Assembly: GCA_031267575.1 (NCBI GenBank)
Contig: JAIRYN010000073.1
Span: 1 to 64,000 of the forward strand
DNA: 64,000 nt
Source of the DNA: Synergistaceae bacterium
GTDB taxonomy: Bacteria > Synergistota > Synergistia > Synergistales > Aminobacteriaceae
Direction: 5' to 3'
Part shown: one piece after another, positions 3,335-62,298 of the stretch
How positions within the stretch are numbered: the first letter of the stretch is position 1
How the letters are laid out: the number at the start of each line of letters is the position of its first letter
Translations under genes and position numbers: made by a program
The notes under the pieces: generated by a model
Told to the model about the DNA's origin: nothing
Database searches by the model: none
What the model saw: only the letters and a program-made list of their open reading frames with translations

Positions 3335-3893
3335 GCTATAATACATTAATGTTTCTACTGATAAGCTATTACAAAGCGCGACAGTGTGTTGCAGTGAAAT
3401 TCTATACGGTGTATCGAGCGGCGTAGGTAACAGGCTTGCGCGTTTCAATAGCTTTCAATATCTTTTAATAGCTTTCAATAGCTTTTAATAGCTTTCAATA
3501 GCTTTCAATAGCTTTCAACAATTTTCAACAGCTTTCAACAGCTTTCAATAACTTTCAACAACAAGGAGGTGGACCAATGAAGGAGAAATTTACGATTGAT
3601 TCTGGAGTTTGGGAGATGGTTCATATGCGTTCCAATAGCTGCTGATGTTGTAGCCAAAAACCAAGGCCGTGCAGTAGTTATTGCCCCGGTCACCGAACGT
3701 TTGCATGTAGAGACCGTATGTATCTACTGTGATGAAAATATTATTATAGATTGGGGCGATAACGGCGCTTGAGGAATATTTCCGCAAGCTTTGCGAGATT
3801 CAGCTTTTTCTTTGACTTCATACTCAAAGAAATACTATGCGAAACGTGTCTACTCGTTATAAGTAGGTATTAGTACGCTGAAAGAATCGGAGG
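3325..3893 (+). repeat. Dispersed repeat family, copy 1, with broken small ORF and leader-like 3' end
   Basis: This stretch matches 16549-17055 over most of its length, and its 3' part matches about 53889-54010. It holds an AAGGAGGTGG ribosome site and ATG at 3577 opening MKEKFTIDSG, which stops after 23 codons. A shifted frame continues VPIAADVVAKNQGRAVVIAP and later VCIYCDENI, so it may be a decayed gene. The last 60 bases (GAAACGTGTCTACT to GTACGCTGAAAG) are the best conserved and end just before a permease start codon, as in copy 2. No known family was recognised. Confidence 0.65.
3443..3562. repeat. Decamer array (GCTTTCAATA)n
   Basis: About twelve 10-base units, mostly GCTTTCAATA with T/C and A/C variants, lie immediately upstream of the AAGGAGGTGG site of the broken ORF. 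Copy 2 of the dispersed repeat has only a single related unit here, so the array expanded in this copy. Confidence 0.85.
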
Positions 3894-5393: not shown

Positions 5394-7985
5394 CTAACCC
5401 CGGAGGAGACTCAGAACCGATTGAGGCATCTGATTGGCCTGAGCCAGCATAGCGGTACCGGACTGAGACAGGATCTGGAGGCGCGTAAAGTTCAACATCT
5501 CCTTGGATATGTCCGCGTCCCGAATGCGGCTTTCCGCGTCCGTGAGGTTCGTGCTGGTGGTCGTCAGGTTGGTGACGGTGTGTTCCAGCGCGTTCTGAAA
5601 GGCCCCGATCTTCGCGCGTTGCGTCGAAACTTTGTTGATAGCGGCGTCCAGTATGGTGATGCCACGCGCCGCGGCGTCGCGATCCGTCACGATCACCCGT
5701 GTGACCCCAAGGGCGTCCGCCGACATGTTCCCGATATCCACAGCCACGTCTTCGCCTTCGTTAGCTCCGACTTGAAATATCGTGCTGTTGTCCACCAAGT
5801 GCAGAATCGTTTCGTAGGGTTGCGACTGCTTGATTAAAGAGAAGGCACGCGTCTGCTCGTTCCACTCGGCCCGGATGTTCGCCATCGGGTCGAACTCCAC
5901 GTCCACGTTGGGATGGATAACCCCGACAAGCAGGTTGCTGGAGACCTTCACTCCGCTAGCGATGATGGTGCTATTGTGAGCGTCGTACACGGAGACGGTG
6001 AAGGAATTTTCTTTCGCTGTCTGTACTACATTGAGGGATAGGGCGTTGATGAGTTCCTCGTCGCCGGAGAAGGCGAGTTTGCCGCCATTGCCCGCCACCA
6101 TGGATCGAATGACGAGAGTCCCCGCTACGGACTCCATCGTATTATCGTAGGTTTTGCCGTCCTCGACAAAGCTCACGAACTTCGACGCGCCCTTGGTCGC
6201 GTACCGTCCCTGACCTAAATCCGCGGAGATAGCGTCGTTCAGCTTCCTCTGCAACACGGCCAGGGTATCGGTGGAGTAAAGCGTAACGGTAGCGCTCTTG
6301 CCATCGCCCTGAGAAATGGTGATGGTCTGGTGGTTGGTTAGCAGAAAAACGCCTTGGGGGTTCCAAAACTTGTTGATGTCTCGCAGTTGGACATCCGCCT
6401 TTGCCGTCTGCCCAATATAGGCGGCCTCAAAGGTTGTCAGAGTGGTCTTCGTGCTAGAGGTGAAATTGCTGGTCGCCCCGAAGTTTTTCTCCAGGTTCAG
6501 AACGATATCGCCCTCGTATACCGTCCCGTTGTCCGTGTTGAGATAGAAGTTGCGGAAGTGCAGCTCCTTTCCCGCGACGGCGGCTTTGTTCACCGCGTAG
6601 TGGAGAGGGCGCTCCGATACCCTGTAGGTCGGGGGATTGGGTTGAATTCCCTTGTTGTTCAAGTCCATGTCCGCCCACTTATTGGGCCAGTCTGGGGTCT
6701 GTTGCCCTTCTATCCGGACAACTGTATCCGCGGCGGGGGCGATGGCGGATTTTGTCGCGGTGACGTTGAAGACCATCTTGTCGCCCACTGCGTAGTCGAT
6801 CTTACCGCCGTTTCTCGTCGGATCGGACGTGAGGCTGTTCGCGTCGATGAAAATCGCGAAATCAAAGCCCAGCTTGCTGCTTGACGCCGGGGGAGCGGTT
6901 TCCCACTTGGTGGCCTCTTGGAGGGTTGGCGCCGCTCCGCTAGGCGCCTTGGCCGAGACGACGATATTTTCCTGAACGTGGTTCTCCACCGTGCCGTCTG
7001 CCTTCAGAATCGAGGACGTCAGGCGGAGCGTCACGGTCTTGCCCGTCATGTCCACCGCCGTAACCTCCGCCAGGACGCTGGCGTTGATATCCTGGGTGAG
7101 AACCGCGAAGATATCCTGCCCTTTACCTGTGCCAGGGCTCGAAGTTGATGGCGCGCTTGCCCGTTCGCCGGCTTGAATGCCTTGGCTGCTGTAATAACCC
7201 ACCAGGCGGGTGTTGCTCGCGTCGCCTCCGTATGCCCCCACCGCTGCGTTCCAGATTGCGTTAGAGTCAGCGAAAGCGGTCTTCACGTCGCCGTCCGCCC
7301 GTATATTGTACGCACCAGCCGGGATGTTGTCCACGCGAGCGTTCTCCACTCCCACTTGGTTATTGACGCTTTTGTTCATGACAACGTTTTTGTGTTTGAT
7401 CGTGAAAATATCGCTCTTTTGAGCTTCGGCCTGACCGGGATCCGCGTTGACCCTTATTTTGTAGTTACCCTCAAAGGCGGCCTTCTGTCCGAATTGATCA
7501 ATCTGGCGCAGGGATCCTTTGACGTAGGCCTTCGTGGAAAGCTCACTAGAGGACCACAGAGCGGCGGCGCTGCCATCAAGCAGCCGCTTTTTGTTGAACT
7601 GCGTCGCGGTGGCTACACGGGTGAGTTCCCCTTTCAACTGGTCGATTTCCGATTGAATGTACTGGCGATCTTGCTGAGTCAGAGTATCGTTAGCCGCCTG
7701 AACCGCTAACTCCCTCATACGCTGGAGAATACTGTGATCTTCGCTCAATGCCCCTTCCGCCGTTTGCAACATCGAGATGCCGTCTTGGGCATTCCGAACC
7801 GCCATATTCAAGCCGTTGATCTGGGCGCGCATCTTCTCGGAAATGGCCAGCCCCGCCGCGTCGTCCGCCGCGGAGTTGATGCGCAAACCCGTAGAAAGCA
7901 TCCTGACCGATTTTTGCAGAGCGGAATTTGTCTCATTGAGAGCGTTGAAAGCATAAAGCGCCGGTATGTTGTGATAAATCCTCAT
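5394..7985 (-). CDS. fliC: Flagellin, very large (863 aa)
   Basis: Filament subunit exported by the flagellar type III system. Residues 1-140 are a canonical D0/D1 N-terminus ([20 protein letters not shown], then [19 protein letters not shown]). The last 110 residues form the matching C-terminal D1/D0 ([20 protein letters not shown], ending [16 protein letters not shown]). Between them lies about 600 residues of variable D2/D3 sequence, far more than in a usual 270-500-aa flagellin, so a heavily decorated filament is expected. Start: ATG after AAGGAGG. A sigma-28-like promoter lies just upstream. Confidence 0.95.
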
Positions 7986-8431: not shown

Positions 8432-9724
8432 TTATGCAAAAATAGATATGCTCGTTCCCGAATAGTAATTTGAGTTGCCGAAGCTGGACGGATTAGGGAG
8501 AGTGACTTTGATATTGACGTATTTGACCAAAAGTTTGCCGTTCTCATCGATCATCTGGTTAACTCTGGGTGTCTGTCTGTAAAATTCCGGGTCATCTTTC
8601 GTTATCATCGTCGGGATCGCTTGGGGGCATGCATTATTCGGATCTTGGCCTGGGGCGGCCCGCAAAACCATTTTGGTGGTTGGTTCCATTCCGGCAATCC
8701 GCACGTTGACAGATACGCTGAGCAGATAACCGTTTTGTGCACGAGAGTTCATGAGCGCTCCCCACAGACCTTCATCTTCAGTCGATCCCGTTTCCTGCGT
8801 TATATCGTACTTCTTAAGTTCTTCTTCTGACATTTGCGATGTTTGCGACATGAACTCAGACTCGCTTATGGAACCGGACGAAATTGTATGCCCAACGGGA
8901 TCTCTAGCGAATGACTCCAAAAGACGTTGTGTTCCCGAAGAAAGCGAGCCCACCATCTTCGCGAAAGTATTGTTGTTAGCCTCCTCCGAATATGTGCCCT
9001 GCGGATTCGCCGCTCCGTTCCGATTGACAAACGAGGCAAGTTTCCCCTGCTGTTCCTGTAGTCTCGATAGATCGTTCTCCAAAGCGGCCGTACTCGCCTC
9101 GGCCGCTTTGGAGTCCATCACGCTTCTTCCTTCGTTTTTCAATATGTCGCCGACCGTCGGGACATTCGGGTCGCCCGTGATCTCCCACTTATCCGGCGCC
9201 CCAACAACGCCAGGATCAGCAAGATTTACTTCGGCAACATCCCACCGTTCACCGTTGGCAACGCGTTTGGCGGCTCTCGCAAGCATTTTATAAGATGACG
9301 TGTCTTCATACGAGCGTTCAGGAAACAGAACATTTCCATGTACGAATTTCTCTGTTTGGATATCCAGCTCATACTGCAACTTGCCTAACTCCGTCTGCAG
9401 GGCGATACGGTCTTGGGCGCTCAATGTCTCGCTCTGCGCCGATTCGGTAATTTCTTTCATTCGCGTGAGAAGTTCCTCCGCTATCGTGATGTGTTTGTCG
9501 ATCGACTTCAATTTCGGATCGGCCCCCACGCCTCTTAACTTTTCTTGCCAGGATACCGCGTCATCACCGGAAACGTTCTCGCCGCCAGCAGGAAGACTTT
9601 TCTGAAAACTATCCGACGCGCGCTTAAGCGCCCCGCTCAAGCGATCAGTAAGAGAAGTCCCGCCCCCTCCGAGGCCACCCATTGGCAACCATTGCGATGC
9701 TCCTAAACCCACTTGATTTATCAT
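8432..9724 (-). CDS. Flagellin-like protein lacking the terminal D0 domains
   Basis: About 430 aa. Residues 75-130 (AEELLTRMKEITESAQSETL, then SAQDRIALQTELGKLQYELD) align with the flagellin D1 spoke helix ([19 protein letters not shown]...). The usual start ([14 protein letters not shown]) and the C-terminal LAQANQ-type end are absent, and the C-terminal half is unrecognised. Without D0 it should not polymerise as a normal filament subunit; it could be a decoration, cap-like or regulatory protein. The ATG at 9724 is preferred over the GTG at 9733, because GGAGGGG lies eight bases before the ATG and abuts the GTG. It lies directly upstream of the giant flagellin gene, on the same strand. Confidence 0.6.
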   Translation of the reverse strand: MINQVGLGASQWLPMGGLGGGGTSLTDRLSGALKRASDSFQKSLPAGGENVSGDDAVSWQEKLRGVGADPKLKSIDKHITIAEELLTRMKEITESAQSETLSAQDRIALQTELGKLQYELDIQTEKFVHGNVLFPERSYEDTSSYKMLARAAKRVANGERWDVAEVNLADPGVVGAPDKWEITGDPNVPTVGDILKNEGRSVMDSKAAEASTAALENDLSRLQEQQGKLASFVNRNGAANPQGTYSEEANNNTFAKMVGSLSSGTQRLLESFARDPVGHTISSGSISESEFMSQTSQMSEEELKKYDITQETGSTEDEGLWGALMNSRAQNGYLLSVSVNVRIAGMEPTTKMVLRAAPGQDPNNACPQAIPTMITKDDPEFYRQTPRVNQMIDENGKLLVKYVNIKVTLPNPSSFGNSNYYSGTSISIFA

Positions 9725-9751
9725 CAAGATCACCCCTCCTTGGTTTTTTTA

Positions 9752-9787
9752 AAAGTCTCGTTACACTTTGTTCCGCAACGAGACTTT
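9752..9787. other. Hairpin between two minus-strand genes
   Basis: An 11-base perfect stem AAAGTCTCGTT/AACGAGACTTT. No T-run follows it in the direction of transcription, so it may stabilise mRNA or attenuate rather than terminate. Confidence 0.5.
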
Positions 9788-9793
9788 CAAAAC

Positions 9794-11334
9794 TCACTGT
9801 ACAGTATAAGAATTAATGTAGTGACCCATATAACCATCAAATATATCTGAATTATAGTACCCATTAACTGGCGACAGGAAATCCTTCAATTTTCCAGTAT
9901 CTAAATCGTAGACAAATCCCGACTTCCAAAAAAGATCCTCGTTATAGAAGGTATCAGCAAACAAATCAGACTGACCACCCATAGATAACATATTACTAAA
10001 ACTAAAGTGAACCGGCAAAAGCCATATAGCATTAGAAGCAGAACTACTTTCATGCAACTCATTCTCCATGCTGCTACTATAGCTTATAAATAGAGCCCGA
10101 TGTATCGCCCCTGATGTTACATTAAAACGCGTAGATTTTTGTGGTTGTGGTATTGTTACTTGACGACTAAATGAGAGACTAATTGATGAAATTTTTAGGT
10201 CTGAATTAACCCACAACGTATTGGCTGTTGTCATATAAGCGATTCTGTTGTTGCTACTATTGCGTCCTAAAACCTGACCAATCGTTCCGGAAGAATTGAA
10301 GGTATTCACCAGTATCGAGTAATTATAGTTCAAATTGCTATAATACAAATTTCCCTCCGAAAGGACTCTAATGTAATAAGTACCCGGTGAAACCATTATC
10401 GGAACATTTGCGTTTGGTTCTATTGCCCCTTGATAAACAAGGTTTTCATTGTAAACATAGCCATAAACCAGAGGAATAACACCATAGACGTCTTGCATAA
10501 TCATCGTCAGAACCGCTCGATTGGCAGATGTCGGTACGGTAAATTTAATAAAGTCTTCATCACGAAGAGTGGCTATTTCACCACTTATTCCTACTGTATT
10601 TGGCACCACAATCCTCGCGTTTTCGGGAAAATCATTAACTTCCGAGATTTCCGGATTGGGGTCAAAACTATTATAAAGAGTATATAGTTCAGTGGAACTT
10701 CCAGAATACGAGTACACAACAATAAAATATATCTCACCAGTTTCCGCTAGAAAGGATATATGCTCATCGGAACCCCCGACGCGTTGACTGGCTTTGAAAG
10801 ACAGCACATTTCCAGCGTATAACTTATACACATACAAGTCATAATCCACATTAATCTGGGGAACTCGCAGGTGCATCGTGAATTGTCCAGCACTAGGAGC
10901 CTGAGTATAAAACCAAGATTGATGTCCTGTGTAGTCTAATGTGTCCGAAAAATTCATATTGGGCGGTATCATTGGAGCAGTGTTAGGCGAATCATTACCC
11001 GTGACCGAGGACATAGTACTCAACCCTGAGGACGAACTTTCACCTAAGGATAAGCTCTGACCGCTAGGTACAAACAGTCCATAAGGTGGTGATATCGGAG
11101 ACAGCAAAATATTTTTTTTGCTCAAGTTATATATTGATTGATCCTTTGAAGCGACCGTCAGCGTCTCTGTCGGGAAATGGAGTGGTAGAGATTCATCCGA
11201 CACTTCCATAATTGATCCAGCATAATTATTCCCCAAAAAGCCTACCCCCCCCCCCCCATATCTTCGTCATTCGCATGAACAGCAGAGCAAAAGAAAAACA
11301 CACTTACAACCACCAACAACACATTACGCCTCAT
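9794..11334 (-). pseudogene. Secreted PPC-domain protein, out of frame at a poly-G tract (possibly phase-OFF)
   Basis: The ORF from 11236 down to 9794 (480 aa, TTG start) has no ribosome site. Upstream, GGAGGT and ATG at 11334 open a signal peptide (MRRNVLLVVVSVFFFCSAVHA), then NDEDM, then a run of 13 G, and the frame ends at TAG. One extra G, or two fewer, would join the signal peptide to the long ORF. The body has two bacterial pre-peptidase-like (PPC) beta domains: near residues 75-160 (NTAPMIPPNMNFSDTLDYTG) and 200-300 (NDFPENARIVVPNTVG). A surface or secreted role is likely; no catalytic domain is visible. Phase variation, decay or a homopolymer sequencing error would all explain the break. 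Confidence 0.7.
11245..11257 (-). repeat. Homopolymer tract G13 (contingency-locus candidate)
   Basis: Thirteen consecutive C on the plus strand (G in the coding direction) lie 27 codons into the secreted-protein gene. The present length puts the signal peptide and the body in different frames. Confidence 0.85.
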
Positions 11335-11556
11335 TACTCTACACCTCCAAATTTTCTACAGCTCTAAATCTTCATTGAATTCATTTTAATTTTAAAATTA
11401 CTTTTGTCAATCCATGCTGAGCAGATTTACTATTCAGTCAAGTCGATCAATTCACGAGTTAAAGGCCTATACTAAATCGACGTTTCCGGGAATAATTCAT
11501 TTCGCGTCTATTTCGCATCTATTTCACATCTATCTGAAACATTTATAATAAAAGTT

Positions 11557-14121
11557 TTAACTTACCAAATTCCTCTTTATGGAGATTCTGATGACATCCG
11601 CCAGGCTATTAGCTCCAAGTTTCGCATAGACCGTGTTCAGCAGCATCTTCACCGTTGTGATCGACAAATCGCGATTTGCCGCGATTTCCGAACGAGAAAG
11701 CCCTTCGTACAAGTCTTGAAGAACTTCCATTTCTCGCGTCGACAAACGCACGTCATCTCCTATGTTGTTTGCTTTTTTATACTCCGATATGACGAGAAGC
11801 AACTGCTTCGCGTAAGTGGCTGATTTCCTGTTGATCAGTTCGAGCCACTGGATGGGGATGCCGCAGTCTTTCTCCCGCATCGCCGCTCGGGTTAACGTGC
11901 GCATGTCGTTGCCCATTTCGATGAACGGCATCGTCAAATTGTTCGATAACGCGAGGTCATAAGCTTCTCGCAACGCGACCCTCGACTCGTCTCGATTTTT
12001 AATGTGATATTGACACGCCGCCGTGAGCAGTTTTATTTCTAGTTTTCCAAACAACACCTCACCAAAAACCGGTTTGCTTTCAATAAAGGATAGCAGCTCG
12101 TGGTATCGCTTGTCCGAGTAATAAAATTTCGCTTTGACAAAGTTTCCAAAATCCTCCTTGAATGTTCCTATGGAACCTTTTCCGAAGTCGTCGCTCAGTA
12201 TCCAATGGACGACCAGATTGGGTTGATTGAGAACGAAATGGTACCAGCTTGATACGATGTCGTAGGTGATGAAACGGGTGGGATATTCTTTCATTTCCAA
12301 CTGCGCGCTCAAGTTTTTAAATATCCTCTGGACCCCCTTGAAATCCCCCTGCGCGACAGCGATGCGCAAAAGATAAAACAGAGCCCGATTTCTGACTTCG
12401 TATTGATTTTTTTCCTCCGCTTTATATAACGCCTGCCTGAGGAATTTCATGGAATTTTTCAAGTCACCCTTGTAAAATTGCAGCTCACCTCTGGCCAGAT
12501 CATCCAATCCGAACATACACCCGCCCATCATATGGCTCATATGCGGTATCGAGCGCGTCAAAGCGTCGATATATTCCTCCATCGCGCCGCTTCTCGTTGT
12601 TCCGACTTTAGAAACTAAAGCGCTCAGGGATACGCTGGTAATGGAACCAGATTCTAAATAAGGGCTGGAAGGGTTGGACTGATAATAATAAGTTGACTTC
12701 TCCAGCGGCTCCTCGAAATCGTAACGATCCGTGTGAGGCGCCATAAGATAGCGCGCGATAGCCAGAGCCATATAAGTGCCGCAAAGGACCCGGTTGTTGA
12801 AATCAGAGCAGGGCAGAGCCGAATATTTTTCGATGCGTTTCTCGATGTCCGCCAAGGCTTCTGCATAACGGTTCAGACTCATGAGCAGGTTCGGATACTC
12901 GCGATGGTACAAAGCGATGTCTTCCAGCGCGGAGGCCGGCGCTTTGTTATAGACGTCGAGAATAAACTTCGCTTGGTCGTAAGGGAACCGTATCGGCAGA
13001 TGGTACACTAACTCGACGATCGCCTTGTATTCGCCAGCCTTGTCGTAGTAGGACACGGCATCCATTTTATACTCGTTCTCGTCGCACCAGCGAGCCGCTT
13101 TTAAGTAGATGTCTTTCTTTTCCTCCGCCGTCAGAAAATCCTGTTTTTGCCGCAGGTAGTCGAGAAAGAGGCGGTGGATAAGATAAACGTGCGAAAAGGT
13201 GTCAATCCGAACGAAAGAAGTGATTTTCTTCAATTCCTCGATGAGGGTTTTGTCACCTCCGGCAAGAATCGAAACCAGATCTCTCGAAAGGTGCTCAATC
13301 AGCGACAATTGAATTAGAAATCGTCGCATTCTCTCTGAACTCACGAGGAAGACCTCGTTTTCGATCATTTTGAAGATATTCAGCTTCATCGCGATACGCG
13401 CGTCTTGTACTTGATCGGGAGATTTTTTCAGGGACAAGCTGATCAGATTTACCGCTAACATCCACCCCGCCGTGTCGCTGTAAATACCGGCGATGCTTTG
13501 AGGCGACAACGGAATACCCATCAAACGAAAATACCCTGCTATTTCGCCCTCTGTCAAGCGTAAATCATCTTCGTTGACGTGAAAAACCATTCCCTGCGAG
13601 AGCAATCTCACCATGTTGATGTTTGGGTCTGTTTGTGAAATTAGGATCATGGCCACATTCGGGAACGGGGAATTGATGGATCGTTCGACAAACCGGAGCA
13701 CCGAGTTTTCCTCGATGAGATGGAAATCGTCGAACACGATCACCCGCTTCTCCTTGAACAAGAGATTGTCCTCGATCGTCGAAAGGTATTTCTCGAACTG
13801 GTCTCTCGTCTCTGGAAATCCCAACATCGATAGACGCTCTGCCAAGTTCTTATCGCGCAGCAAAATCGTATTAGTGAAATGCTCCCAAAATCGGGCGCCC
13901 AGGTTATCGCGTTCCGAGAGCTGCAACCACAGCGTGTCCGCATCGTAGTTCTGGAGAAACGAGTAGACAGCCCAAGTCTTACCATAGCCAGTGCCCGCGG
14001 AAACAATGATCAAAGATTTCTGGAGGGCTTCCGCGAAAATTCCCTTTATTCGTGGGCGTTCCAGTAAAGTCCTATTTTCGGTAAGAATTGCCAATTCTCT
14101 GCGGAATATATGGTCACTCAT
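11557..14121 (-). CDS. MalT-like LuxR-family ATP-dependent transcriptional regulator
   Basis: 854 aa. The N-terminal STAND NTPase has a Walker A at about residues 42-50 (SAGTGYGKT) and a Walker B (VIVFDDFHLI). A long helical TPR-like middle region follows. The C-terminal 65 residues are a LuxR/NarL helix-turn-helix (LSTREMEVLQDLYEGLSRSE, then ITTVKMLLNTVYAKLG). Proteins of this architecture are inducer-activated DNA-binding switches. It lies directly upstream of the G-tract gene and the flagellin genes on the same strand, so it may control them; that is inference. Confidence 0.88.
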   Translation of the reverse strand: MSDHIFRRELAILTENRTLLERPRIKGIFAEALQKSLIIVSAGTGYGKTWAVYSFLQNYDADTLWLQLSERDNLGARFWEHFTNTILLRDKNLAERLSMLGFPETRDQFEKYLSTIEDNLLFKEKRVIVFDDFHLIEENSVLRFVERSINSPFPNVAMILISQTDPNINMVRLLSQGMVFHVNEDDLRLTEGEIAGYFRLMGIPLSPQSIAGIYSDTAGWMLAVNLISLSLKKSPDQVQDARIAMKLNIFKMIENEVFLVSSERMRRFLIQLSLIEHLSRDLVSILAGGDKTLIEELKKITSFVRIDTFSHVYLIHRLFLDYLRQKQDFLTAEEKKDIYLKAARWCDENEYKMDAVSYYDKAGEYKAIVELVYHLPIRFPYDQAKFILDVYNKAPASALEDIALYHREYPNLLMSLNRYAEALADIEKRIEKYSALPCSDFNNRVLCGTYMALAIARYLMAPHTDRYDFEEPLEKSTYYYQSNPSSPYLESGSITSVSLSALVSKVGTTRSGAMEEYIDALTRSIPHMSHMMGGCMFGLDDLARGELQFYKGDLKNSMKFLRQALYKAEEKNQYEVRNRALFYLLRIAVAQGDFKGVQRIFKNLSAQLEMKEYPTRFITYDIVSSWYHFVLNQPNLVVHWILSDDFGKGSIGTFKEDFGNFVKAKFYYSDKRYHELLSFIESKPVFGEVLFGKLEIKLLTAACQYHIKNRDESRVALREAYDLALSNNLTMPFIEMGNDMRTLTRAAMREKDCGIPIQWLELINRKSATYAKQLLLVISEYKKANNIGDDVRLSTREMEVLQDLYEGLSRSEIAANRDLSITTVKMLLNTVYAKLGANSLADVIRISIKRNLVS

Positions 14122-20257: not shown

Positions 20258-21102
20258 CCAAGATAACGTCGGCAAAGTCTTCCAAGAAATATTTGCTGAA
20301 GGTCGAAAAGAAGGAATATCTGCTGAAGGTCGAAAAGATCGGGATTCGATTTGGCGGGTTGCAGGCTGTGAGTGAATTCGACCTTAATCTCGCGTCCGGC
20401 GGGCTCTACGGGATTATCGGCCCCAACGGGGCAGGGAAAACGACGGTTTTCAACATGCTCACGGGTATCTATCGTCCGACGGAGGGGAGTATTCTCTTCA
20501 AAGGCAAGGAGTGGTCTGAGGGCAAGGATATGGTCGGCAAAAAAATTCACGACTTTACCGCCGCCGGAATAGGGCGAACCTTTCAGAACGTCAGGCTCTT
20601 CAAAAATTTGTCGATTTTGGAGAACATCGAGATCGCTTTGCACCGGAGCGTTCAATATGGATTGATGTCCGCGTTGTTCCGAACTTCCGTCATGAGGCGA
20701 AGAGAGAAAGAAATTCAAGACAAGGCGATCGCTCTTCTGAAGCGACTGGGGCTTTTGTCTCACCTGGACAAAAAGGCGAGCAGCCTCCCCTATGGTTTGC
20801 AGCGGCGTCTCGAAATCGCCAGGGCGCTTGCGACTTCCCCGACGCTACTCCTGCTGGATGAGCCCGCCGCGGGAATGAACCCTCAGGAGATCGACCAATT
20901 GATTGAAGACATTCGGTGGATCCAGGACGAATTTGCCCTGACGGTGCTTCTGATCGAACACCATATGGCGTTAGTAATGGCGCTGTGCGATGACATCACG
21001 GTGATGAATTTTGGCAGGATCATCGCCGGTGGGCCTCCGGACGCGATCAAAAACGACCGGACGGTTGTCGAGGCCTACCTGGGAAAAGGAGGCAACTTCT
21101 AG
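20254..21102 (+). CDS. livG: Liv-type ABC ATPase, LivG-like
   Basis: 282 aa. Walker A GPNGAGKTT at about residue 60, a signature region (LPYGLQRRLEIARAL) and Walker B LLLLDEPAAGMNP, the LivG hallmark. Its ATG overlaps the livM stop. The N-terminus carries a tandem in-frame duplication (KYLLKVEK, then KEYLLKVEK) placed before the normal LivG start, adding about ten residues. Confidence 0.92.
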   Translation: MTKITSAKSSKKYLLKVEKKEYLLKVEKIGIRFGGLQAVSEFDLNLASGGLYGIIGPNGAGKTTVFNMLTGIYRPTEGSILFKGKEWSEGKDMVGKKIHDFTAAGIGRTFQNVRLFKNLSILENIEIALHRSVQYGLMSALFRTSVMRRREKEIQDKAIALLKRLGLLSHLDKKASSLPYGLQRRLEIARALATSPTLLLLDEPAAGMNPQEIDQLIEDIRWIQDEFALTVLLIEHHMALVMALCDDITVMNFGRIIAGGPPDAIKNDRTVVEAYLGKGGNF

Positions 21103-22235: not shown

Positions 22236-23228
22236 ATGAAAAAGTTCGTTTCACTATTTGCGATTTTGCTTGTTTTTGCCGCTAGCGCTTCGTTTGCTGC
22301 GCCCGTCAAACTTGTGGTCGCTCACAACCAGACCTCGCAGGAGAATCCGTACCAGTATGGGATGCTCAAGTTCAAGGAAGCCGCGGAGAGACTGTCAAAC
22401 GGGGAATTTTCCGTTGATGTGCACGCTGGGACCATTGGCACCAATGAAGACGAACTTGTCGAGAAAATCCAGCTCAGCGCGGCGGATGTCGTTGTCGTGT
22501 CCCCCGGATTCATGACGAAAATCGGTATTCCCGAAGTGGACATGTTCTCACTCCTCTACCTCTTTAGCGGATTTACCCACTGGGAGAAGGTTGTCGATGG
22601 AGAGCCCGGCGCGGCGCTTGCCAAAATCATCAACGAAAAATCAAACAACACCTTCCGTATCTCCGCTTATTGGTCCGCGGGTGTGCGAAACTACTACGGT
22701 AAAAAGCCGATCGAGAAGGTCGACGATCTGAAGGGAATGAAGATCCGCACGCAGATGTCAGGGGTCGTCGCCGATTTCTGGAAGAAAACCGGCGCGATTC
22801 CCACACAAGTTGCCTGGGGTGAACTCTATCAAGCTCTCCAGCAAGGAATCGTGGATTCCGCGGAGAACGACTACACCAACTTCAGCCTTCTCGACCATCA
22901 TAAGACCGCCAACGGTAAGTTCATCACGGAGACCGAACACGACTTCACCACTCGTGTGGTTTTGATGAACGGCAAAAAATGGGATTCCTACAGCGATCAG
23001 CAGAGGGCCTGGATCACGCAGGCGCTAGAAGAGGCCACAGCGGAAGAGCGCAAAGTGACCTACGAAGACCTAGGCAAATCCAAGGAACGCGTTTTGTCGG
23101 ACGGCGCTAAAGTCAATACGATTGATAAGGCTCCTTTTATCGCCATCGCCATACCCATCCAGGACGAACTCGCCAAACGTCTTGGTATGGAATCCTTCCT
23201 AAAGTCAATAAGAGACCTGGCTCAATAA
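22236..23228 (+). CDS. dctP: TRAP-transporter substrate-binding protein (DctP family)
   Basis: 330 aa. Signal peptide MKKFVSLFAILLVFAASASFA, then the DctP fold (VVAHNQTSQENPYQYGMLKF). LKGMKIRTQMSG carries the conserved carboxylate-binding Arg. It binds an organic acid in the periplasm for the QM permease. Start: ATG 22236 after GGGAGGGG. The last ten codons including the stop are tandemly duplicated just downstream (23199-23228 and 23229-23258). Confidence 0.92.
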   Translation: MKKFVSLFAILLVFAASASFAAPVKLVVAHNQTSQENPYQYGMLKFKEAAERLSNGEFSVDVHAGTIGTNEDELVEKIQLSAADVVVVSPGFMTKIGIPEVDMFSLLYLFSGFTHWEKVVDGEPGAALAKIINEKSNNTFRISAYWSAGVRNYYGKKPIEKVDDLKGMKIRTQMSGVVADFWKKTGAIPTQVAWGELYQALQQGIVDSAENDYTNFSLLDHHKTANGKFITETEHDFTTRVVLMNGKKWDSYSDQQRAWITQALEEATAEERKVTYEDLGKSKERVLSDGAKVNTIDKAPFIAIAIPIQDELAKRLGMESFLKSIRDLAQ

Positions 23229-23258
23229 CTAAAGTCAATAAGAGACCTAGCTCAATAA
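23199..23258 (+). repeat. 30-base tandem duplication of the dctP 3' end
   Basis: CTAAAGTCAATAAGAGACCT... occurs twice back to back, with one base changed. The second copy lies outside the gene. Confidence 0.9.
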
Positions 23259-23289
23259 CCTAGACTCCAGGGGTTGTTCCATTTATTTT

Positions 23290-40665: not shown

Positions 40666-42147
40666 TCAATTTCTTAATTCAAGTCTGCCGTGACCGAACA
40701 TCGGCATTTTTTCGGACTTCCCGCCATCGTCTCGAAAAACAAGTTCGCCGCGGACGAAGGTCATAACGGGCTGACCCTTCCCTTTCAATCCAGCAAAGGC
40801 CGAAATTTTGTTCAGATAAAACAAAGAATCGGGGGTAATTTCCCACTCGCGTTCAGGGTCGAGGACGACAATGTCCGCGTCGAAGCCAATTTCAATCGCT
40901 CCCTTGCGTCCGTAGAGCCCGAAAACGCGGGCCGGTTCCTCGGATAGACAGCGGGCGAGGAGTTCCGGGCTTAAGTGCCGCTTGTGGACAGCACTGTCGT
41001 AAAGAACCTGCATTGTCGTCTGAACGCCCGAAATGCCACCCCAGGGCGCGAACGCGCCTTCCTTTTCTTCTTTTTCTTTTTCCCAGGGCGCGCATTTTTC
41101 CCAGGACGCGCAGGGCGAGTGATCGGAGGCGACACACTGGAGGGTTCCGTCGGCGACGTAATCCCACAATCGCTCCATAGCGTCCCGCTCTCTCAGAGGA
41201 GGGGCGCATTTGAAAAACATTCCCTCGCGCCCGCACAGGAAATCGTCCTCCGAGAAGACGAGGTAGTGTGTGCAGGTCTCGGCCGAGAGGGGAAGGCCTT
41301 TCGCTCTCGCTTGGCGCACGCGTTCCGCCACCTCGGGGTGACTGATGTGGCAGATATGAGCCCTCGCGCCAGTTTCGCGAACCAGTTCGATCACGTTTTC
41401 CACGGCGATGATCTCCGCGGAGAGGGGGCGAGACCGGAGAAAATCAAGACGCCCCGCCCGCCCCTCTCTTTGCGCGCGCGCTTCTTCGTGTTTGACGATA
41501 GCGAAATCTTCCGCGTGGAAACCGACGAGAGCGCCAAGAGAGGCCGCTTTTCGCAACGTTTCCCTTATGGCCCCCATATCGAGAGAACGGTAATCACTCG
41601 ATACTGGGCCGATAAAAATCTTGAAAGCAACAACGCCGGCGTTGTGAAGTTCTTCCATTTTATCTTTATCTTTATCTTTATCTTTTTTATCTTTGTCTTT
41701 ATCTTTGTCTTTATCTTTATCTTTGTCTTTGTCCGGTTTGTCTTTATCCAGAACGTCATCGACGAGACCACCCCAAAAACCGTAGTTCACCAAAGCCTTC
41801 TCCCGGACGGCCGCGTGTTTGGCGTGAAAGAGCGGCACGCTCGTCAAGGCGGGGTCGTTTTGGAGCGGCATGTCGAGAACGGTCGTGACGCCTCCGGCCG
41901 CCGCCGCCAGAGTTCCGTGCTCGAAATCCTCGCGCCACAGATATCCCGGATCGTTAAAATGGACATGAACATCAATGGCTCCAGGAAAAACGAGTTTACC
42001 GGAGATATTTTCCGTCTGACGCGCTTCCCATACAATATCCCTTTGGGTTATCGCGGAGATTTTTCCCCCTTCCGTGTAGACATTTCCCTCAAAAAGCCCC
42101 TCAGACGTGACGATAGTTCCGTTTCTTAAAAGCAAATCAAAAATCAT
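40666..42147 (-). CDS. Second allantoinase-like cyclic amidohydrolase with Lys-Asp repeat insert
   Basis: 493 aa. Metal motif D59-H61-H63 (GAIDVHVHFNDPG), AAAAGGVTTVLDMPL, K176 in AFKIF, HICHIS and ASDHSPC. It is a paralogue of the 34453 gene. Residues ~133-163, between GGLVDDVL and MEELHNAG, are almost pure Lys-Asp, coded by a hexanucleotide repeat; the paralogue has only two residues here. Allantoin, hydantoin or dihydropyrimidine substrates are possible. It has its own leader and is separated from the importer operon by 115 bases. Confidence 0.85.
   Translation of the reverse strand: MIFDLLLRNGTIVTSEGLFEGNVYTEGGKISAITQRDIVWEARQTENISGKLVFPGAIDVHVHFNDPGYLWREDFEHGTLAAAAGGVTTVLDMPLQNDPALTSVPLFHAKHAAVREKALVNYGFWGGLVDDVLDKDKPDKDKDKDKDKDKDKDKKDKDKDKDKMEELHNAGVVAFKIFIGPVSSDYRSLDMGAIRETLRKAASLGALVGFHAEDFAIVKHEEARAQREGRAGRLDFLRSRPLSAEIIAVENVIELVRETGARAHICHISHPEVAERVRQARAKGLPLSAETCTHYLVFSEDDFLCGREGMFFKCAPPLRERDAMERLWDYVADGTLQCVASDHSPCASWEKCAPWEKEKEEKEGAFAPWGGISGVQTTMQVLYDSAVHKRHLSPELLARCLSEEPARVFGLYGRKGAIEIGFDADIVVLDPEREWEITPDSLFYLNKISAFAGLKGKGQPVMTFVRGELVFRDDGGKSEKMPMFGHGRLELRN
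41660..41735 (-). repeat. In-frame hexanucleotide repeat (Lys-Asp)n inside the amidohydrolase gene
   Basis: About twelve copies of CTTTAT/CTTTGT on the plus strand (AAAGAT/AAAGAC in coding sense), with one TTT insertion (KK). Changes by six bases keep the frame. Confidence 0.92.
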
Positions 42148-60779: not shown

Positions 60780-61544
60780 TTGAACTCGAAGCATAGAACT
60801 CGAATGAACTCGAAGCATAGAACTCGAACAAGAGGTGAACGTTATGAGCAAAAAAAAATTTTGATTGTCGAGGATGACATTTCCATCGCCGAGATTGAGC
60901 GTGATTTTCTCGATATCAACGGATTCGACAGCTTCATCGTGACGAACGGCATCGACGGACTGCGGGAGGCGCTCTCCGGCGAGTACGCCTTGATTCTCCT
61001 CGATCTCATGCTGCCCGGTCTCGACGGATACGAGATTACCCGAAGAATCCGAGATTCAGTGGACATCCCCATCTTGATGGTGACGGCGAAAACGGAGGAG
61101 TTCGACAAAATACGCGGCCTTGGACTTGGTGCCGACGATTATATATCGAAGCCTTTTTCGCCTACGGAACTCGTGGCCAGGGTAAAAGCCAACATCGCTC
61201 AATACGAGAGATTGACCGGAGAGCAACCCACCAAAAGCGGCGAAATAACTGCGGGCAACGTCAAAATAAATCTGAAAGCGCGTCGCGTCTACGTCAATGA
61301 AAACGAAATTGAGCTAAAAAACAAAGAATACGAGTTGTTACTGTTTTTCGTCTCCAACCCGGATACCGTGTTCAGCAAAGAGACCCTCTACGAGCGTATT
61401 TGGGGCGCGGACGCGCTGGGCGACATCGTCACGGTCGCGGTCCACATCAACAGGTTGCGCGAAAAAATCGAACGCCATCCCGCCAATCCTATTCACATTC
61501 AAACCGTCTGGGGAGCGGGCTACCGATTCAAGCCCTCGTTGTAA
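60780..61544 (+). CDS. OmpR-family response regulator; natural start out of frame at an A9 run
   Basis: Receiver (ILIVEDDISIAEIERD, phospho-Asp in ILLDLMLPGLDGYE, K in YISKPFSP) and C-terminal winged helix (VFSKETLYERIWG, VHINRLREKIE). The best start is ATG 60844 after GAGGTG, but it reads MSKKKF-stop; one more A in the nine-A run would give MSKKKILIVEDD in frame. As sequenced, only an upstream ORF from 60780 (two copies of MNSKHRTR, a 24-base duplication) is in frame, without a good ribosome site. Slippage or an assembly error could restore the normal start. Confidence 0.8.
   Translation: MNSKHRTRMNSKHRTRTRGERYEQKKILIVEDDISIAEIERDFLDINGFDSFIVTNGIDGLREALSGEYALILLDLMLPGLDGYEITRRIRDSVDIPILMVTAKTEEFDKIRGLGLGADDYISKPFSPTELVARVKANIAQYERLTGEQPTKSGEITAGNVKINLKARRVYVNENEIELKNKEYELLLFFVSNPDTVFSKETLYERIWGADALGDIVTVAVHINRLREKIERHPANPIHIQTVWGAGYRFKPSL
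60850..60858 (+). repeat. A9 homopolymer at the regulator start
   Basis: Nine A residues immediately after ATGAGC. Ten would restore the frame. Confidence 0.8.
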
Positions 61545-61833: not shown

Positions 61834-62298
61834 TCAGTCTTTTTGATACTGCATTTTTTCCACAGACGCGTTTTCCACGGACGGCGGCGTAAACGGAATA
61901 ACCCAGTATTCCACCGGCGCGTCGCCGAGAATCGCGGGAATAGAAACAATGACCCTCTCCATAAACGTGGGGATCATGAAAGTCCTTTCCACTTTTTTGT
62001 TATTGGTGTCGACTTCTTTTTTGTTATTGGTGTCGACTTCGTCCACGATCACGATTTTATGTTTGGGTCCACTGACGGTGAGCATAGCGCGCTCGGCACG
62101 CCCCATTGGGGAGTTCAGCTCTTTGCCATCGACGCTGACGATGGCCGAAACGTAGGAACTCAGCTCTTGATCTCCTATCGTCACCGCGTTGGTGTCGAGG
62201 AGCAACGTATGTCCTTTACCGGTGTAGAAAAGATACGCCGAAAGGGCGACCAACCCCAGTACGACACATATCCTTTGAATCAGGCTGCGCGAGGTCAT
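61834..62298 (-). CDS. Small membrane-anchored hypothetical protein linked to an ABC importer
   Basis: 154 aa. One N-terminal helix (ICVVLGLVALSAYLFYTG), the rest probably periplasmic. It is not a recognised enzyme. Its ATG overlaps the permease stop (ATGA), so it is likely a subunit or accessory of that importer. Residues ~90-104 contain EVDTNNKKEVDTNNKKV, a 24-base in-frame tandem duplication. It may belong to an uncharacterised DUF family that travels with RbsC-type permeases; this is from memory and untested. Confidence 0.6.
   Translation of the reverse strand: MTSRSLIQRICVVLGLVALSAYLFYTGKGHTLLLDTNAVTIGDQELSSYVSAIVSVDGKELNSPMGRAERAMLTVSGPKHKIVIVDEVDTNNKKEVDTNNKKVERTFMIPTFMERVIVSIPAILGDAPVEYWVIPFTPPSVENASVEKMQYQKD

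Follow-up and report, generated by a model that had tools for sequence, protein, structure and literature searches.

A run of 13 G separates the signal peptide from the 480-codon body of a PPC-domain protein gene in the 64-kb stretch of Synergistaceae DNA analysed here (hereafter, the window). This tract (G13) is likely to be a slipped-strand contingency locus, and the assembled sequence appears to have caught its putatively exported PPC protein in the OFF state. The reading is based on the anatomy of the gene, on the outlier length of the tract and on the presence of length-variable tracts elsewhere in the family, from which we infer slippage, export and benefit.

Anatomy of the PPC gene and its neighbourhood

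The features of the locus are as follows, in the direction of transcription.

11557-14121, minus strand: MalT-like LuxR-family regulator, upstream (PF00196, 9e-12; NCBIfam MalT, 4e-47, under the model's cut-off)
11383-11410, minus strand: sigma-70-like promoter TTGACA-16-TAAAAT (11 of 12 consensus matches, the best of the region; from a consensus scan only)
11344-11348, minus strand: ribosome-binding site GGAGG, 9 nt 5' of the ATG (sequence)
11272-11334, minus strand: ATG (11334) and Sec-type signal peptide MRRNVLLVVVSVFFFCSAVHA (translation)
11245-11257, minus strand: G13 tract, exactly 13 G, a length outlier in the genome (sequence)
11242-11244, minus strand: TAG stop reached at G13, the putative OFF state (translation)
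9794-11236, minus strand: body frame, 480 codons, one frame off the signal peptide (open frame)
10709-10915, minus strand: PPC domain PF04151, single copy (profile match)
9747-9792, minus strand: predicted terminator-like hairpin, 19 bp with a UUUU tail, 2 nt past the stop codon (RNA fold)
8432-9733, minus strand: flagellin-like protein, 433 aa, downstream (PF00669, E 0.01, a weak partial match)
5394-7985, minus strand: flagellin, 863 aa, downstream (PF00669 and PF00700)

As the first-pass annotation had described, a ribosome site, an ATG and a signal peptide run into 13 G and a stop: the frame opened by the ATG at 11334 on the minus strand translates as MRRNVLLVVVSVFFFCSAVHANDEDMGGGG, followed by the stop, with NDEDM lying between the signal peptide and the G run. 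The signal peptide was called by eye and from hydrophobicity, without a signal-peptide predictor. Translation in all frames also confirmed that 14 or 11 G join this frame to the 480-aa body, as tract lengths of 2 modulo 3 do in general, and that one G gained or lost toggles the frame close to the 5' end of the gene.

The PPC domain claimed for the body was recovered by the Pfam profile (PF04151, 29.9 bits against a cut-off of 25.9; E 1.1e-6). Such domains typically occur in exported proteins. Despite the domain name, no protease domain was found in the 480 aa with the Pfam and NCBIfam profiles, and many PPC proteins likewise lack a protease. The body has no relative in the PDB and no NCBIfam match, and the structure predicted for the body alone has a mean pLDDT of 36.5. 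The protein carries a predicted signal peptide and no recognisable membrane or surface anchor. A second PPC copy, hinted at by the strand pattern, was rejected for want of Pfam support.

A stop-free run of 482 codons at 40% GC has a probability of approximately 2e-14 by chance; therefore, translation of the open body must have persisted until recently, or continues. The gene has a GC content of 40%, compared with 51% for the window, and no homologue of its protein was found among 83 genomes of the family (matches in genome G024, with E values of 7e-4 and 0.004, were rejected because they lie on the opposite strand of an acetate-kinase-like gene). The low GC content and the absence of homologues suggest that the PPC gene was recently acquired. 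They would also fit a recently fixed frameshift in a horizontally acquired gene that is turning into a pseudogene; however, no further lesion has accumulated across the 480 codons, and the promoter, ribosome site, signal peptide and terminator-like hairpin are all intact, making this explanation very improbable.

The MalT-like regulator upstream and the flagellin genes downstream are located where they had been reported, with the qualification that the 433-aa neighbour shows only a weak partial match to flagellin; it has weak relatives in ten genomes of the family or order, its own genome included. The implied link to the flagellin genes was weakened by the predicted hairpin at 9747-9792 (-25 kcal/mol, z -6.1), which lies between the PPC gene and the flagellin-like gene and would place the PPC gene outside the flagellin transcription unit. 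Because the 19-bp hairpin and its U tail directly follow the stop codon, the PPC gene looks monocistronic; it is predicted to be self-contained, and cotranscription with the flagellin-like gene is improbable.

Tract length and other long tracts of the genome

G13 is the sole G run of at least 8 in the window. Pattern searches of the whole genome (2.76 Mb, a draft of 76 contigs) yielded 181 overlapping matches to G7, 12 to G9 and 6 to G10, and six runs of G9 or more. By a rough geometric extrapolation from the exact G7 and G8 runs of the genome, 3.8 runs of at least 9 would be expected (6 were seen), 0.09 of at least 11 (2 seen) and 0.0023 of at least 13 (1 seen).

The length of G13 itself rests on this one assembly. 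Since assemblies err most at long homopolymers, and since this is a 76-contig draft in which the body frame is intact, the true tract might be stably in frame, leaving an ordinary, always-on gene for a secreted protein; poly-G at the contig ends of some relatives (e.g. contig C66 of genome G089), which looks like an artefact and was not used as evidence, points in the same direction. However, even at 11 or 14 G, in frame, the tract would still be a genome outlier and slippery, and the other tracts of this genome and the pattern in the family would be unaffected. We therefore regard an assembly or sequencing error as unlikely.

The window also contains other kinds of repeats. Tandem Repeats Finder returned 54 rows in the 64 kb, including many short tandem duplications with periods of 10-45, many of which are near-perfect two-copy arrays between genes or at gene ends (for example, 3443-3558, 20284-20338, 23199-23259, 60781-60828 and 61992-62040). 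At 41659-41748, a hexanucleotide array encodes (DK)n within a dihydropyrimidinase/allantoinase-like gene, where the 6-nt units preserve the frame.

Elsewhere in the genome, a C11 tract lies in frame inside an FkbM methyltransferase gene (PF05050; L076:15659-15669, contig C17 of genome G000), and on the same contig a hexapeptide acyltransferase gene has a G9 tract in frame close to its start (PF00132; L076:9841-9849). The two tracts are separated by 5.8 kb, in a region with further genes for sugar-nucleotide-type enzymes, and they are candidate surface-glycan switches, both apparently in frame. Another G9 tract (L077:8312-8320, contig C67) lies a short way 5' of the gene for a membrane protein (627 aa, no Pfam match), in the space that separates this gene from a family-2 glycosyltransferase gene. 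This tract had been considered as an out-of-frame switch, but that candidate was withdrawn because the homologues of the 627-aa protein in five other genera start past the tract position and have no tract at the start; in the closest one, the start codon aligns with a GTG 3' of the G9. The C67 tract is thus probably located in the leader. The remaining two runs, both G9, are also in frame; the genes that hold them were identified by eye as TatD-like and YbeY-like, and the runs may be due to chance.

The C67 tract provides a precedent in the same genome for a start codon located past a tract, and the PPC gene might similarly start at TTG 11236 or ATG 11209, with G13 as a mere leader. This is extremely unlikely, because neither codon is preceded by a good ribosome site, the upstream frame possesses GGAGG, an ATG and a full signal peptide, and proteins with PPC domains are typically exported.

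TA or CA follows each of the four tracts within or next to surface-related genes, compared with 11 of the 69 control runs of G7 or G8 (Fisher p 0.001 for the four tracts and 0.013 for all six, for a feature that was picked post hoc).

Tracts in related genomes and their flanks

By one conserved protein, the closest named relatives of the genome are Synergistaceae metagenome assemblies and a Fretibacterium sp. assembly. Tracts of G10 or longer are present in 75 of 101 related genomes. They are most conspicuous in the genus designated g17 (loci L046-L075 and L079-L147; genomes G027, G036, G041, G044, G046, G047, G053-G055, G059 and G060), where many genomes contain about 10-40 tracts of at least 10 G: about 20-40 in each of four genomes and fewer in the others. 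The g17 tracts lie in or before glycan and surface genes (capsule-type glycosyltransferase, pyruvyl transferase, MBOAT acyltransferase, cytidylyltransferase, CotH protein and beta-helix repeat protein), and also in or before genes for IF-2B-like and DUF4910 peptidase-like proteins. Tract length differs in 7 of 10 homologous tract pairs, all at family loci other than that of the window.

A search for a hydrophobic N-terminus with a ribosome site immediately 5' of a tract found the signal-peptide/tract/body layout, besides the window, at L094 and L122. L094 carries a G11 tract in frame, with a body containing beta-helix and Listeria-Bacteroides repeats, whereas L122 carries a C11 tract out of frame, with a body that is open for 507 codons, to the end of the locus. 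At seven further loci (L081, L087, L088, L090, L097, L105 and L113), C tracts of 10-14 directly follow TTGACA and are followed by an AT-rich, -10-like sequence; these are possible promoter-spacer switches.

The family tracts also bear on programmed recoding, in which RNA polymerase or the ribosome would slip on a fixed G13, so that a constant share of the product would be full-length. Transcriptional slippage can occur at long homopolymers and is best known from A/T runs (PMC3711429), and recoding would account for an intact body behind a frameshift. However, variation of length among homologous loci and the occurrence of the layout both in frame and out would be superfluous for a recoding site, and some tracts lie outside genes, just 3' of TTGACA elements. 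Recoding is thus quite improbable as the role of G13.

The flanks of the g17 tracts share short motifs. In the 40 bases upstream of 81 tracts, TACGTA precedes 15 tracts (0.3 expected), GTAATT 17 (1.0 expected) and AATTAC 14 (1.1 expected), counts that are somewhat inflated because a few of the tracts are homologous to each other. Immediately downstream, the g17 tracts, in unrelated genes, are followed by T/C-A. The G13 of the window lacks the g17 upstream motif (p 0.65-0.68 against AT-matched controls), and this absence counts against reading G13 as a switch. When the motif was tested on the six tracts of the genome with two word sizes, a score was obtained for the C67 tract alone (p 0.005-0.014).

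Proposed switch and comparison with known systems

The on/off switching proposed for this gene in the first-pass annotation remains the best-supported reading, given the outlier length, the intact anatomy and the family tracts; its description as a surface protein goes further, and surface display is at most a possibility for this orphan protein with a signal peptide but no recognisable anchor. Slippage switching is favoured because surface-glycan genes contain or adjoin three other long tracts of the genome, among them its other outlier, and because the tracts of the family are widespread and length-variable, with the layout recurring in both states. DNA polymerase would slip in the tract and add or remove G residues. 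At lengths of 2 modulo 3, the signal peptide and the PPC body would be joined by a short linker of glycines, yielding an exported protein of about 512 aa, whereas at other lengths translation would stop a few codons beyond the tract. With a constant promoter and ribosome site, ON and OFF cells would coexist in a clonal population, the assembled G13 sequence representing the OFF state, and cells may benefit from varying the exposure of a secreted or surface protein.

The best-documented cases of phase variation through slippage in homopolymers come from host-adapted Neisseria, Campylobacter and Helicobacter. In the available portions of the cited papers, poly-G/C tracts make surface genes phase-variable in Neisseria (HmbR and HpuAB; PMC3786947) and in Campylobacter (PMC8355987). 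Those genes and the PPC gene share a G/C homopolymer in the reading frame, in which loss or gain of a single unit toggles the frame, and in both cases a genome contains several such loci in surface genes (PMC3786947, PMC8355987). However, switching has been measured in Neisseria and Campylobacter (PMC3786947, PMC8355987), whereas it is predicted for the PPC gene, which belongs to a different phylum, encodes an orphan PPC protein and carries its tract directly behind the signal peptide. The oipA gene of Helicobacter pylori similarly has an on/off repeat near the 5' end of a gene for an exported protein, but its repeat is a CT dinucleotide and its product an outer-membrane protein, in contrast to the G run and the absence of a visible membrane anchor in the PPC gene (PMC10564699, as far as its available text goes). 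A further parallel, described in the accessible part of PMC2831843, is inlA of Listeria monocytogenes, in which a homopolymer lies at the very start of a gene for a secreted surface protein and a frameshift leaves a few residues, as in the PPC gene; inlA differs in that a 5' poly(A) tract in one gene is concerned, whereas the PPC gene has G13 and its genome carries several long G tracts.

The mechanism of the slippage switch is thus already known, while its wide use in Synergistaceae seems to be unreported in the literature searched: the accessible portions of open-licence papers that mention both Synergistetes and phase variation contained no treatment of homopolymer switches in this phylum. 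A broader proposal, which we offer tentatively and consider rather unlikely, is that Synergistaceae possess poly-G contingency loci on a scale like that of Campylobacter or Neisseria and that, in one genus, the tracts follow a common short motif in genes and promoter regions that are otherwise unrelated. If this is true, a process guided by the motif would seed or maintain the tracts, which would not have arisen individually, and the G13 of the window would be an isolated outlier of this system that lacks the motif.

These results advise caution in the annotation of such draft genomes, because genes recorded as 'frameshifted' may be switches and not pseudogenes, and they provide loci where read data can be checked for population heterogeneity. 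Slippage switching in a gut-type Synergistaceae genome, and its abundance in a related genus, would extend this kind of phase variation to a phylum whose members are mostly uncultured commensals.
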